From Methylomonas sp. (lineage in GTDB: Bacteria > Pseudomonadota > Gammaproteobacteria > Methylococcales > Methylomonadaceae), in the NCBI GenBank assembly GCA_002929135.1, contig PESC01000057.1, positions 1-63,757 of the forward strand: a stretch of DNA of 63,757 bases. Direction: 5' to 3'. The translations under genes were made by a program, and so were the position numbers. A model generated the notes under the pieces. It was not told where the DNA came from. It was given only the letters and a program-made list of their open reading frames with translations, and did no database searches. Of the stretch, positions 57,593-63,757 are shown piece after piece (position 1 is the stretch's first letter; each line of letters starts with the position of its first letter).

Positions 57593-57623
57593 GCACTGCG
57601 GAAGCAGGGTGCCTCCGCAGTGC
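57593..57623 (-). terminator. Intrinsic terminator after fba
   Basis: Perfect 10-bp stem GCACTGCGGA and TCCGCAGTGC around an 11-base loop. On the minus strand it is followed by a T/C-rich stretch ending TTTTT. It closes the RuMP cluster and separates it from recQ. Confidence 0.7.
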
Positions 57624-57638
57624 TGATACGAACGAGAC

Positions 57639-58715
57639 TTACAGTGTATTGACCGCGTTCAATTCCTGGAAAGCTTGTTGCAGGCGCACAATCATGCCTT
57701 CTTGGCTAGCGCGTTGCCATACACGAGGGTCATAAAACTTTTTGTTGGGCTTGTCGGCGCCATCGGGGTTGCCGATCTGGCCTTGCAGATAGCCCTCGTT
57801 TTTCTTGTAATAGTTCATCACACCTTCCCAAGATGCCCATTGGGTATCGGTATCGATGTTCATCTTGACGACGCCATAGCTGATGGACTCTTTGATTTCC
57901 TCAGGCGAAGAGCCCGAGCCGCCATGGAATACGAAAGTCAGCGATTTGGCCGGTAAGCCAAATTTTTCCGATACGTATCTTTGTGAGTTATCGAGAATTT
58001 TCGGGGTCAGTTTGACATTGCCTGGCGAGTAGACGCCGTGCACATTGCCAAATGAGGCTGCGATGGTGAAACGGTGGCTGATTTTGCTCAAATGTTCGCA
58101 AGCGTAAGCCACATCTTCCGGCTGTGTATACAACGCGGAGTGATCCATGCCCGAGTTGTCGACACCGTCTTCCTCTCCACCGGTACAACCCAGTTCGATT
58201 TCCAGCGTCATGCCCATTTTCGACATGCGCTCCAGGTATTTACCGCAGGTTTCGATGTTTTCTTCCAGGCTTTCTTCAGACAAATCCAGCATGTGCGAGC
58301 TGAACAAAGGCTTGCCGGTGGCGGCAAAGTGTTTTTCACCTTCATCCAGCATGCCATCAACCCATGGCAGCAATTTTTTGGCCGCATGGTCGGTATGCAG
58401 TATGACGGGAACGCCGTACAGTTCAGCCATTGCATGAACGTGGCGGGCACCGGAAATCGCGCCAGCGATGGAGCAGCCCTGGCCTTCCAGTTTCAAGCCT
58501 TTACCGGCAACAAATGCGGCACCACCATTCGAGAACTGGATGATGACGGCTGATTTTGCTTTTGCGGCGGCTTCTAGTACCGAGTTGATGGTATCGGTGC
58601 TGATGACATTGACTGCCGGCAGCGCAAAGTTGTTTTCCTTGCAGATCGAGAAGATTTTTTGCACATCTTCACCGGTGACTACGCCGGGTTTTACTACATC
58701 TAAAATTTTTGCCAT
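57639..58715 (-). CDS. fba: Class II fructose-bisphosphate aldolase
   Basis: 358-residue zinc aldolase acting in the cleavage part of the RuMP cycle and in gluconeogenesis. Asp109 and the zinc His110 (VILHTDHAAKKL) match the E. coli FbaA numbering; SSHMLDLSEE and the phosphate-binding FVFHGGSGS are present. Last gene of the cluster hps-phi-tkt-orf-tal-fba. Confidence 0.95.
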   Translation of the reverse strand: MAKILDVVKPGVVTGEDVQKIFSICKENNFALPAVNVISTDTINSVLEAAAKAKSAVIIQFSNGGAAFVAGKGLKLEGQGCSIAGAISGARHVHAMAELYGVPVILHTDHAAKKLLPWVDGMLDEGEKHFAATGKPLFSSHMLDLSEESLEENIETCGKYLERMSKMGMTLEIELGCTGGEEDGVDNSGMDHSALYTQPEDVAYACEHLSKISHRFTIAASFGNVHGVYSPGNVKLTPKILDNSQRYVSEKFGLPAKSLTFVFHGGSGSSPEEIKESISYGVVKMNIDTDTQWASWEGVMNYYKKNEGYLQGQIGNPDGADKPNKKFYDPRVWQRASQEGMIVRLQQAFQELNAVNTL

Positions 58716-58827: not shown

Positions 58828-59817
58828 TCAAGCTTCCAAAGCAGCCAAACGATCGGCCAGCAGTTTTTCCAATGTTTCCAGTGCTTTTGCGAAACCGTCG
58901 ATACCTTCAGCCAGTTTGTCTTTTGCCATGCGGTTTTCGTCGTGCATACGGTCGAAAGTCGCTTTGTCGACGCTGATTTTTTCGATATTGACACTGGCCG
59001 CATGAACCGGATCCAGTTTGCGCGGCAGTTCAGCTTCGATGGATTGCAGTTCGGCCAACAAAGACGGCGCGATAGTCAACAAGTCACAACCTGCCAATTC
59101 GGTGATTTCACCGATGTTGCGGAAGCTGGCACCCATGACTTCGGTTTTGTAACCGAACTTTTTGTAGTAGTTGTAAACCTCGGTAACCGACAATACACCG
59201 GGGTCTTCGTGTGGCGCATAGGAATCACGACCGGTGTCTTTTTTGTACCAGTCCAGAATGCGGCCTACGAATGGCGAAATCAGCTGAATGCCGTTCTCGG
59301 CACAAGCAATCGCCTGGTGCATGCCGAACAGCAAGGTCAGGTTGGTATGAATGTTTTCTTTTTCCAGCACCGCAGCCGCTTGAATGCCTTCCCAGGTAGC
59401 AGCAATCTTGATGAGAATACGTTTTTCAGTATCGATACCTGCCGCTTGATACTGGGCAATGATGTCGTGTGCCTTGGCAATAGTGCCTTCGGTGTCGTAG
59501 GACAAACGGGCATCGACTTCGGTAGAAACGCGGCCTTCAATGATTTCCAGAATTTTCAGGCCAAAAGAAACCGCGAGGCGATCGAACGCCAATGCAGCGA
59601 CTTCTACAGCGGATGCGCCAGCACCCAAGGTTGCACGGGCACTTTTCAAGGTGTCATCGACGATGCCTTGGTATTGCGGCATTTGCGCAGCAGCAGTAAT
59701 CAATGACGGATTAGTGGTCGCATCACGTGGCTTGAAGGTTTCAATTGCCTGAATGTCGCCAGTGTCCGCGACGACTACTGTCATCTCGCGGAGTTGTTCA
59801 AGTAGGTTTCTTGCCAT
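58828..59817 (-). CDS. tal: Transaldolase
   Basis: 329-residue class I enzyme for the carbon rearrangement stage of the RuMP cycle. The Schiff-base lysine is Lys137 in [22 protein letters not shown] near the N-terminus is the family signature. Length fits the classical TalB form. It lies downstream of a structured 245-base gap and upstream of fba. Confidence 0.95.
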
Positions 59818-60061: not shown

Positions 60062-60736
60062 TCAAGATTTGTCGCGCAGGTATTTTTCGACACCGGTTGC
60101 GCTTGCAGCCGCTGCTGCCTTGTCTTTGACGATTTGTTTCGCCATATATTTCGCTACACCGGTCGCGGGTTGTTGTTCAGTTTGTTTTTCAAGGTATTTG
60201 GCGACGCCAGTTTTATTGGCGCCCATTTTTTCCAGATACTTTTCAACACCTGTCGATCCCGATACAGCAACGTCATCCGATGAAGCCGAACCCGATTTGA
60301 CTTTGGATTTTTTGTTAAAGACAAAGAAACCTGCAATGGCCAGAACGATCAGGCCAATCATTGAAAAATCGGAAGAACCTGCTTTTTCATTCTGAATGAC
60401 TTCATTGGAAACGCTGGCTGCCGATGCCGTCGCTTTAGGCGCAGATGACGAATCACTCGATGCGCTTGGCGCCGTGGAGGAATGTTTGTAGTCGGCATCG
60501 TGGTAAACCACTTTGGGTTTGTAATTGGTTGCCGGGTAATTGGCGTCATCTGCTTCAGCTTTAGCTTCGACTTTGGCAGCATCTGCCTCAGCCGGTTGAC
60601 TTTGACTTGCCGATGAATCGCTGTAAACCACCTTGGGCTGAAAATCCGTTGCGGGATAATCAGATTCGGCCATCACGGAAGTGCTAACCAGCAGTAATGT
60701 TGCCAGCGCAGCGTTGGTTAATGGATTTTTATTCAC
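60062..60736 (-). CDS. Unrecognised single-pass membrane protein with TGVxKYL repeats, in the RuMP cluster
   Basis: 224 residues, not recognised. Order: signal peptide (about 1-23, cleaved after SVMA); two repeats YPATDFQPKVVYSD (27-40) and YPATNYKPKVVYHD (67-80) separated by an Ala/Glu/Lys-rich stretch; a Ser/Ala-rich linker; a transmembrane helix FSMIGLIVLAIAGFFVF (about 124-140) with basic residues KKSKVK just after it; then four copies of TGV(E/A)KY(L/M) at 162, 176, 192 and 214. Topology implies repeats 1-2 outside, TGV repeats in the cytosol. GTG at 60736 with GAGGTGA upstream is preferred to a GTG at 60745. Lies between tkt and tal in the same orientation. Confidence 0.8.
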   Translation of the reverse strand: MNKNPLTNAALATLLLVSTSVMAESDYPATDFQPKVVYSDSSASQSQPAEADAAKVEAKAEADDANYPATNYKPKVVYHDADYKHSSTAPSASSDSSSAPKATASAASVSNEVIQNEKAGSSDFSMIGLIVLAIAGFFVFNKKSKVKSGSASSDDVAVSGSTGVEKYLEKMGANKTGVAKYLEKQTEQQPATGVAKYMAKQIVKDKAAAAASATGVEKYLRDKS

Positions 60737-60764
60737 GTTTCTCACCTCATTCGTTGAAACCTTA

Positions 60765-60794
60765 AATCGAGGCTTGGCTTGCCAAGCCTCGATT
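60765..60794. other. Perfect hairpin between tkt and the TGVxKYL gene
   Basis: 14-bp perfect inverted repeat AATCGAGGCTTGGC / GCCAAGCCTCGATT with a 2-base centre. On the minus strand it is followed by TTTAAGG, a weak T-run. Probable terminator or RNA-stability element just after the tkt stop. Confidence 0.6.
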
Positions 60795-60802
60795 CGTCAT
60801 AT

Positions 60803-62815
60803 TCAAAGCACCGCTTCGACGTTGGCGACGACATTATCGACAGTGAAGCCAAACTCTTTGAAGAGTTGACCTGCGGGCGCCGACTCACCGAAACGATCCA
60901 GCCCGACCACTCTGCCATGGCTGCCAGCGTATTTCCACCAGCCGTCGGTAACGCCAGCTTCAACCACGACACGACTGGTCACATTCGCAGGCAGAACGCT
61001 GTCTTTGTAGGCTGCGTCTTGTGCGTCGAAAACGTTGGTGGACGGCATGGATACCACACGGATGCTCTTGCCTTTGGCTTCCAGTACTTCTGCGGCTTTG
61101 ACGGCCAGTTCGACTTCGGAACCTGTGGCGATGATGATCGCATCTGGGGTACCTTTGCCATCTCTAAGAATGTAACCGCCTTTGCTGACTGCATCGATCT
61201 GCGCTTGGCTACGCGCCATGTGCGGCAGGTTTTGACGCGAGAAGATCAAAGTGCTTGGACCATCTTTGCGTTCAATGGCGGCTTTCCAGGAGATGGCCGA
61301 TTCCACTGCGTCGCAGGGGCGCCAGACCTGCATGTTGGGAATCATGCGCAGGGTGGCAGTTTGTTCAACCGGTTGGTGGGTTGGGCCATCTTCGCCCAAG
61401 CCAATGGAGTCGTGGGTATAGACGAATATGCCAGGGGCTTTCATCAATGCAGCCATACGCAGGGCGTTACGGGCGTATTCCGAGAACATCAGGAAAGTCG
61501 CGCCGTAGGGTTTGAAGCCGCCGTGCAGGGTAATGCCGTTCATGATGGCGCTCATGCCGAATTCGCGCACACCGTAGTAGACATAGTTGCCGTCAAAACC
61601 TGGGGCACATACGTCTTTGCAACCGGACCACAAGGTCAGGTTGGAACCAGCCAAGTCGGCAGACCCCCCCATCAGTTCAGGCAGCAAGGGACCAAAACCG
61701 TTAAGAGCGTTTTGCGAAGCTTTGCGGCTGGCGATGGTTTCGCCTTTTTCGTTGACGGCAGCAATGAAGGCATTGGCTTTTTCGTTCCAGTCTTTCGGCA
61801 GCTCGCCCGCCATGCGGCGTTCGAATTCTGCAGCCAATTGCGGATGGGCGGCTTTGTATTGAGCAAATTTTTCGTTCCAGGCAGCTTCCTGGCGCTCACC
61901 TTTGGCTTTCGCATCCCAACCAGCATAAATATCGGCAGGAATTTCAAAGGGCGCATGGCTCCAACCCAGATTTTCACGGGTAGCGGCCACTTCGGCTTCA
62001 CCCAAGGCAGCGCCATGGCATTCTTCTTTACCTTGTTTATTGGGTGATCCCCAGCCGATGATGGTTTGACAACAGATGATGGATGGTTTGTCTTTGACGC
62101 TACGGGCTTCATCTATGGCTTTTTTCACAGCCTCGGGATCGTGTCCGTCGACTTTCGAGATGACATGCCAGCCGTAAGCTTCGAAGCGTTTCGGGGTATC
62201 GTCATGGAACCAGCCGTGGACGTTACCATGACCGCGAACTTCGCCATCAATGGAAATGTTGTTATCGTCATAGAAGGCGATCAGTTTACCCAAACCCATG
62301 GAGCCGGCCAGTGAGCAAGCTTCGTGAGAAATGCCTTCCATCAAGCAGCCGTCACCTAGGAAGGCGTAGGTGTAGTGATCGACGATGTCATGCCCAGGGC
62401 GATTGAATTGTCCCGCTAGCGTGCGTTCGGCCAATGCGAAGCCGACGGCATTGGTGATGCCTTGCCCCAAAGGGCCTGTGGTGGTTTCGACACCATCGGT
62501 GTAGCCATATTCAGGATGTCCCGGCGTTTGGGAGTGTAATTGACGGAAGCGTTGCAGCTCTTCAACGGGCAAGTTGTAGCCCGACAGATGCAGCAACGAG
62601 TAAATCAGCATGGAACCGTGACCATTGGACAGAATGAAGCGGTCGCGATTGGCCCATTTCGGGTTATTAGGGTTATGACTAAGAACGTCGTTCCATAGTA
62701 CTTCTGCAATGTCCGCCATACCCATCGGGGCGCCTGGGTGCCCGGAATTGGCTTTCTGGACAGCGTCCATACTAAGGGCGCGGATGGCGTTCGCTAAGTC
62801 TCGGCGCGAAGGCAT
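60803..62815 (-). CDS. tkt: Transketolase
   Basis: 670-residue thiamine-diphosphate enzyme that regenerates ribulose 5-phosphate acceptors in the RuMP cycle. TPP motif [19 protein letters not shown]-terminal [19 protein letters not shown], and the C-terminal [15 protein letters not shown] are intact. AAGGAGA precedes the ATG. Lies between phi and the TGVxKYL gene. Confidence 0.96.
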
Positions 62816-63014: not shown

Positions 63015-63548
63015 TCATTCCAGGTTGGCGTGTCTTGATCTCATTTCTTCTTCCGGGATACCTTTCTCATGTATGACATGGGAAATGGTCGCTTCCAGGA
63101 AAAGCAGGGTAGACAGCTCGAACACCGTGCCCATGGGCATACCTCTTACTTTGCCATATTGCTCGGAGCGACCGATTTGCAAAGTAATATCCGCCATATC
63201 GCCGATAGTTGAGTCATTTTTCGCAGAAATCAGACAAATTTTCGCGCCGATCTCTTTCGCTCTTTTGGTGAATGCAATCAACTGCTCGGTTTCACCCGAA
63301 CCCGAAATAATGATCAGCAAATCGCCTGCTTTGATGCTTGGCGTTACGATTTCACCCACTACGCTGACATCGTAACCCGCATGCATGAGTCGCATGGCAA
63401 AGAAGTTACCCACCAACTTCGAGCGGCCCGCACCGGAGATAAAAACGCGCTTGGATTGGTCGAGCATGTCAACCAGATTTTTATCCTGCGTATCAGGCGT
63501 TGCTTCCAGTATGCTTGATATTTTGTTGATGACTAAATTCTGATGCAT
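63015..63548 (-). CDS. phi: 6-phospho-3-hexuloisomerase
   Basis: 177-residue SIS-domain enzyme isomerising 3-hexulose-6-phosphate to fructose 6-phosphate, the second fixation step of the RuMP pathway. SIS motifs: RVFISGAGRSKLVGNFFAM and LIIISGSGETEQLIAFTKRA (shown in parts SGAGRSKLVG and SGSGETEQL). It follows hps by three bases. Also named hxlB or rmpB. Confidence 0.93.
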   Translation of the reverse strand: MHQNLVINKISSILEATPDTQDKNLVDMLDQSKRVFISGAGRSKLVGNFFAMRLMHAGYDVSVVGEIVTPSIKAGDLLIIISGSGETEQLIAFTKRAKEIGAKICLISAKNDSTIGDMADITLQIGRSEQYGKVRGMPMGTVFELSTLLFLEATISHVIHEKGIPEEEMRSRHANLE

Positions 63549-63551
63549 GAC

Positions 63552-63757
63552 TTACACCGCTGCGGCTTCAACCAGTTCACGAATCTCACGAGCCGCTTCA
63601 GCAGGTGACGCTGCACCGTAGATTGCCGCACCGACAACGATGATGTTGGCACCGGCTTTGACGGTTTGATCGATGGTTGCCGGTTTGATGCCGCCAGCAA
63701 CGGAAACGCGAACGCTCAGGCCCAGTGAAGTTACTTCGTTCAAGTCGCCGAACGGGG
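63552..63757 (-). CDS. hps: 3-hexulose-6-phosphate synthase, C-terminal part (runs off the window)
   Basis: The last 67 or so codons of a gene whose start lies beyond the right edge. The visible end of the TIM barrel reads LSVRVSVAGGIKPATIDQTV and NIIVVGAAIYGAASPAEAA, the phosphate-binding loops of the OMP-decarboxylase superfamily branch that fixes formaldehyde onto ribulose 5-phosphate. Adjacency to phi supports the call. First gene of the RuMP cluster as seen here. Also named hxlA or rmpA. Confidence 0.9.
   Translation of the reverse strand, partial: PFGDLNEVTSLGLSVRVSVAGGIKPATIDQTVKAGANIIVVGAAIYGAASPAEAAREIRELVEAAAV

Follow-up and report, generated by a model that had tools for sequence, protein, structure and literature searches.

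Linkers of Rubisco are known from the pyrenoid (EPYC1) and from the carboxysome (CsoS2). To our knowledge, it is an open question how methylotrophs hand toxic formaldehyde, made in the periplasm, to the cytosolic enzymes of the ribulose monophosphate (RuMP) pathway. Hps of M. capsulatus is said to have been reported as particulate by Ferenci, Strom and Quayle in 1974.

Titles and abstract openings of the literature held nothing on point about a RuMP scaffold, a metabolon or membrane association in methanotrophs, and titles on mxa genes likewise held nothing on point. The duplicated Methylococcus RuMP cluster is given with its enzymes in two papers (PMC517821, PMC8527097). In another, fitness falls when guides target the RuMP operons MCA3040-45 and MCA3046-50 of M. 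capsulatus, though not gene by gene (PMC13108547). In a further paper 'metabolon' is a company name (PMC5802761). A string search of the available papers returned none of TGVxKYL, TGVAKYL, TGVEKYL, TGVARYL, TGVSKYL, TGVDKYL and YPAADFQPK.

In the present study a gene from the RuMP cluster of a Methylomonas was analyzed within a window of 63,757 nucleotides, by which the whole stretch of DNA under study is meant. The motif protein that it encodes belongs to an undescribed family, and sequence comparison leads us to propose, with middling confidence, that it is a membrane-anchored multivalent scaffold of the RuMP pathway. A conserved, unannotated multi-motif protein in RuMP operons offers a direct genetic handle on formaldehyde transfer.

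The motif gene and its protein

The following features, with residues numbered from the start at 60736, were assigned in the window:

57593..57623, minus strand: terminator-like hairpin 3' of fba (terminator search)
57639..58715, minus strand: fba, class II fructose-bisphosphate aldolase (NCBIfam TIGR01520, above cut-off)
58828..59817, minus strand: tal, transaldolase (NCBIfam TIGR00874, above cut-off)
60062..60736, minus strand: gene for the A-type motif protein, 224 aa plus stop, GTG start (ORF list, translation)
60077..60097, minus strand: motif 4, TGVEKYL, from residue 214 (sequence)
60143..60163, minus strand: motif 3, TGVAKYM, from residue 192 (sequence)
60191..60211, minus strand: motif 2, TGVAKYL, from residue 176 (sequence)
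60233..60253, minus strand: motif 1, TGVEKYL, from residue 162 (sequence)
60305..60373, minus strand: transmembrane (TM) helix, residues 122-144 (hydropathy, model, alignment)
60503..60538, minus strand: YPA repeat 2, YPATNYKPKVVY, residues 67-78 (sequence)
60623..60658, minus strand: YPA repeat 1, YPATDFQPKVVY, residues 27-38 (sequence)
60668..60736, minus strand: signal peptide, residues 1-23 (by eye; alignment)
60741..60748, minus strand: Shine-Dalgarno-like GAGGTGAG (sequence)
60765..60794, no strand: perfect 14-bp inverted repeat between tkt and the motif gene, without a T-run (sequence, folding)
60803..62815, minus strand: tkt, transketolase (NCBIfam TIGR00232, above cut-off)
63015..63548, minus strand: hpi (hxlB), HxlB (NCBIfam TIGR03127, above cut-off)
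63552..63757, minus strand: hps (hxlA), cut by the contig end (partial TIGR03128 match, E 2e-14, 53.7 bits, cut-off 200)

The whole open reading frame spans 60062-60745 (minus strand), and an upstream GTG would give 227 aa; the GTG at 60736 is preferred because the Shine-Dalgarno-like GAGGTGAG stands before it. The initial annotation had placed an unrecognised gene between tkt and tal and read from it a signal peptide, two YPATxxxPKVVY repeats, one TM helix and four TGV[EA]KY[LM] motifs spaced by 14, 16 and 22 residues. The NCBIfam matches of both neighbours bear out the placement, the residue positions give the same spacings, and the architecture was found again, with one TM segment (19-residue hydropathy peak of 2.12 at residue 122) and a signal peptide whose cleavage between …SVMA and ES… is assigned by eye only. 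No convincing known family was found in Pfam and NCBIfam at the thresholds used.

Three matches were rejected as identities. U1snRNP70_N (PF12220), a eukaryotic splicing family, scored 37 bits against a cut-off of 23 for the long relative L054, over a stretch that includes motifs, and was taken as a short-motif coincidence; for the window protein it was not listed at E up to 5. PF14960, below its cut-off in the same search, was likewise read as a short-motif coincidence. The LPXTG anchor (TIGR01167; 12.9 bits for the window protein, below the cut-off of 15.9) shares a hydrophobic helix followed by positive charges, but the helix of the window protein is internal, with about 80 residues of motifs after it.

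A chance origin of the repeats was rejected on two grounds: among 20,000 shuffles of the window protein 19,999 lacked the strict motif, one held a single copy and none two or more, and motif identity was 0.89-1.00 against 0.33, 0.41 and 0.29 in the three linkers, as calculated from 15 of the 19 alignment rows with four more distant rows omitted. A short motif conserved in several copies, set in linkers of low conservation, was thereby found, as looked for in a multivalent linker. A collection of 464 units from 80 distinct proteins gave the consensus [TS]-G-V-[ASE]-[KR]-Y-[LVMI]-x-[KR]-Q, part of which is fixed by the collecting pattern; G, V and Y are near-invariant and the commonest spacing is 20. 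All window ORFs of at least 60 aa were scanned and no second one carries the motif, so that it was rejected as a tag on the window's RuMP enzymes.

In 18 of 18 aligned A-type proteins (rows of profile A3) the 12 residues after the TM segment contain more K/R than the 12 before it. In sister proteins that consist largely of motifs no signal peptide is visible by eye; on both grounds the motifs are predicted to be cytosolic. The initial annotation had made this prediction and had regarded periplasmic motifs as fatal to its own idea; the bias in all 18 proteins points to the opposite side. Two structure models were obtained with low confidence, that of the window form with the TM helix at 122-144 and separate short helices at the motifs, that of the long form with helices along the chain. 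Neither supports a compact repeat fold (pLDDT 54 and 51, pTM 0.16 and 0.22), a result that shallow alignments can also give.

A strong hairpin of differing sequence occurred in the gap between tkt and the motif gene in nine of ten intergenic stretches, folded without a shuffle control, the exception being L067. The hairpin after tkt may set the expression of the motif gene apart; the window search found no minus-strand terminator-like site between the motif gene and tal. Both the window's hps (63552-63757) and a second hps on G000 C40 (1-191, L053) are cut by contig ends, as is to be expected where assembly breaks off at a gene with a second copy.

Linkage to RuMP genes and distribution

Families f1, f4 and f10 are those which we take to be Methylomonadaceae, Methylococcaceae and Methylophagaceae. 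The f1 sample comprised 24 other genera, with one genome per genus and the best listed match picked before its neighbours were seen; g34 and g37, with no listed place, were left out. The interval between tkt and tal holds the gene in all 24, with both neighbours seen in 21 and one side cut by the stretch or contig in L104, L108 and L127, and single loci of f3 (L128) and f5 (L067) agree with this placement. Of 13 f4 genomes, picked partly under the guidance of a nearby hps, 11 have hps directly downstream of the motif gene, and the remaining two, G105 and G046, have the motif gene between tkt and tal; in G039 one of two copies shows only YPA by the pattern used. In f10 a relative without the YPA/TM part stands before tal in 30/30 loci and is preceded by hps in 29 (L167 starts at the gene and gives no view of the hps side; L172 falls under the motif threshold). 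Two loci stand apart: L060, the second copy in G046, is not RuMP-linked and lies by purD, with rpiA 1.7 kb off, and L146 adjoins a contig end, its 6.9 kb containing no reference gene.

L065 (G052 C1) and L128 (G038 C285) are 99.955% identical over 11,200 bases, with the genomes assigned to different families. One of the two contigs is probably misbinned, and L065 was excluded from the motif count because of this near-identity.

The RuMP gene orders seen, with X for the motif gene, were hps-hpi-tkt-X-tal, tkt-fba-X-hps-hpi-tal, hps-X-tal-hps-hpi, hps-tkt-small-long and hps-small-long. The genes are thus encoded alongside RuMP enzymes, another property looked for in a multivalent linker. Were the gene a low-complexity passenger with no part in C1 metabolism, variable linkers and the lack of a known family would be accounted for, but this reading is scarcely credible where the motif is strongly conserved and the linkage is kept across families, gene orders and cluster duplication (in L104, L121, L129 and L130 the cluster is repeated with a motif gene per copy).

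The protein has matches in each of the 36 further genomes of its genus, in G033 only via other family members. In an order sample of 201 genomes profile A3 was found in 169 and HxlA above cut-off in 169 (both 162, HxlA only 7, A3 only 7, neither 25; Fisher p 1.7e-19, ignoring relatedness), a cross-count made by hand from two lists with 12 negatives by elimination. Profile A3 covers the YPA/TM part too, so that its matches do not count motifs. Five of the seven A3-only genomes are f1 genomes without a full-scoring HxlA. HxlA occurs in 9/10 genomes of f6, where the A3 match runs through the YPA/TM part and the motif is absent from the two proteins inspected. In the class sample (369 genomes) profile A1 was found in six and HxlA at E 1e-40 or better in five, these being the same five for both, plus the window's own, whose hps is cut; in G211 and G368 the A1 match is the linker of a kinase, yet a motif gene also lies between hps and tal in both. 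Within f10, 54 of 57 genomes match profile A6, some through the kinase only. A shorter profile, A7, was found in one genome of the phylum sample (299), the window's own, and f10 forms may escape it. Profiles A6 and A1 align over the motifs (97.7%, E 2.1e-12; profile comparison), as repeats can do without common descent.

The gene pmoA was absent in 11/11 f10 genomes tested, with 4/4 controls positive, which makes RuMP and not methane oxidation the common factor. This also bears on a reading that we consider very unlikely, in which the motifs are lipid-binding amphipathic helices, the proteins serve to shape or stack intracytoplasmic membranes in type I methanotrophs, and co-regulation explains why they are encoded near C1 genes. 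This would agree with the short helices of the models, with a hydrophobic moment of 0.40-0.51 for the motif peptides and with the TM segment of the window form; against it stand, besides the tested f10 genomes without pmoA, the near-invariant G, V and Y, which suggest specific recognition, and the f10 version TSVERYIQNQ, which is not cationic.

Forms of the family

Form A is that of the window, with signal peptide, YPA repeats, TM segment and motifs. Form B comprises tail-only long forms without YPA/TM, of 118-544 aa and 4-21 motif-like units by a loose pattern; its gene directly follows form A in 17 of the 24 other f1 genera, with 5-17 units each. In the Methylomonas genomes examined the second RuMP copy has the order hps-tkt-small-long (L054, L058, L068, L072), 'small' standing for a secreted protein, about 95 aa long, that has YPA repeats only. 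The window's own genome has its long form on contig C40, which starts inside the second hps and continues with small and long, with no tkt between. The long forms of L018 and L020 begin with a TM segment followed by KKDK, and six other tail-only forms have no 19-residue hydropathy window above 1.4. For forms without TM an amphipathic N-terminal anchor was rejected, N-terminal amphipathicity being not significant against shuffles (shuffle fraction 0.05-0.62).

Form C is a paralogue with signal peptide, TM segment and three motifs beside mxaD-/mxaB-like genes and MxaF (TIGR03075); the names mxaB, mxaD, mutS, purD and rpiA are our own assignments, in part read by eye. It is present in eight genomes of the window's genus (seven via profile A2 among 28, and G029), with an mxaD-like neighbour in 8/8 loci and MxaF in 7/8, the eighth lying on a 3.9-kb contig. 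A secreted Polyketide_cyc2 (SRPBCC) protein, probably MxaD, adjoins the paralogue in 8/8 loci (L056 5199-5720 and relatives). Form C also lies beside a response-regulator gene, which together with the single-pass architecture would suit a sensor or regulator of C1 metabolism whose periplasmic YPA part senses and whose cytosolic tail signals. To this we attach a slender likelihood, as split forms and forms that consist of the tail only (4-21 motifs, no YPA/TM) are common and domain searches found no output domain.

Form D (L138 7338-8171, L139 6478-7374) combines motifs with a C-terminal tail of conserved-looking, perhaps zinc-binding Cys/His; no Pfam family was found for these two proteins, and they lie away from C1 genes. 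Relatives with YPA repeats and TM but without the motif occur close to mutS in two loci, L059 and L066, and at a different place in L071. In f10 a CheA-like chemosensory kinase (Hpt, HATPase, CheW and receiver domains) carries the motif repeatedly in a linker that joins Hpt domains, with five to six TSVERYIQQQ-like copies in G211 and a few variants in G368 (L096, L097, L152, L154), and many f10 genomes have matches in such long kinase-type frames.

An exact motif-DNA pattern gave 67 matches in eight complete or near-complete genomes (61 at RuMP/mxa loci, 4 in form D, 2 elsewhere), against two for the reversed-pattern control in the same genomes. The motif might serve as an address tag that points to a general hub of cell organisation, such as a polar or membrane landmark, at which RuMP operons, mxa locus and f10 chemosensory kinase gather, and not as a ligand of a RuMP enzyme. 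Form D and the kinase-linker arrays, with long open frames matched in many f10 genomes, speak for such a tag, which is nevertheless unlikely: the motif co-occurs with HxlA in the class sample, no hub gene was found beside the RuMP/mxa motif loci, and in Methylomonas G014 13 of 13 motif-DNA matches fall at its two RuMP loci and its mxa locus.

A putative scaffold and its known counterparts

The initial annotation had suggested a membrane scaffold or recruiter for pathway enzymes, to be abandoned if homologues proved scattered without RuMP neighbours. Linkage to RuMP genes was found across several families and gene orders and, with the cytosolic prediction, strengthens the suggestion; the docking role itself stays a proposal, with a candidate for its partner. 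In the scaffold reading the YPA part would be periplasmic and the motifs cytosolic, each a short helix that may dock on a RuMP enzyme, and arrays of motifs would gather many enzyme copies. Form A would place these along the inner surface of the membrane, the side on which formaldehyde arrives from periplasmic methanol dehydrogenase; in some Methylomonas the paralogue next to mxaF would bring the same tail to the side that produces formaldehyde. The most likely candidate partner is Hps, which fixes formaldehyde, because it is found in every RuMP gene order seen. Against a scaffold count the 7/169 HxlA-positive genomes of the order sample without an A3 match, the RuMP lineage f6 with two proteins free of the motif, the f10 kinase-linker motifs, form D off C1 genes, the N-termini of forms without TM, which are not significantly amphipathic, the hairpin that follows tkt, and the low confidence of the models.

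More tentatively, and with some doubt, a formaldehyde-fixation metabolon can be envisaged, in which tail-only and membrane-spanning TGVxKYL arrays would concentrate Hps and partners as a membrane-bound cluster or condensate, with the mxa paralogue as its transmembrane link to methanol dehydrogenase; formaldehyde would thereby be caught at entry. If true, RuMP methylotrophs from two lineages of Gammaproteobacteria would have this organising layer in common. Should the motifs bind Hps, synthetic methylotrophy would find natural tags in them.

No sequence relation of the motif family to EPYC1 or CsoS2 was found, and it differs from both in its motif, its pathway and the TM helix of form A. What it shares with these Rubisco linkers is repeated short helical docking motifs, putative in the present family, between variable linkers, and genes encoded with, or products serving, a carbon-fixing enzyme; its chain may likewise be largely disordered.
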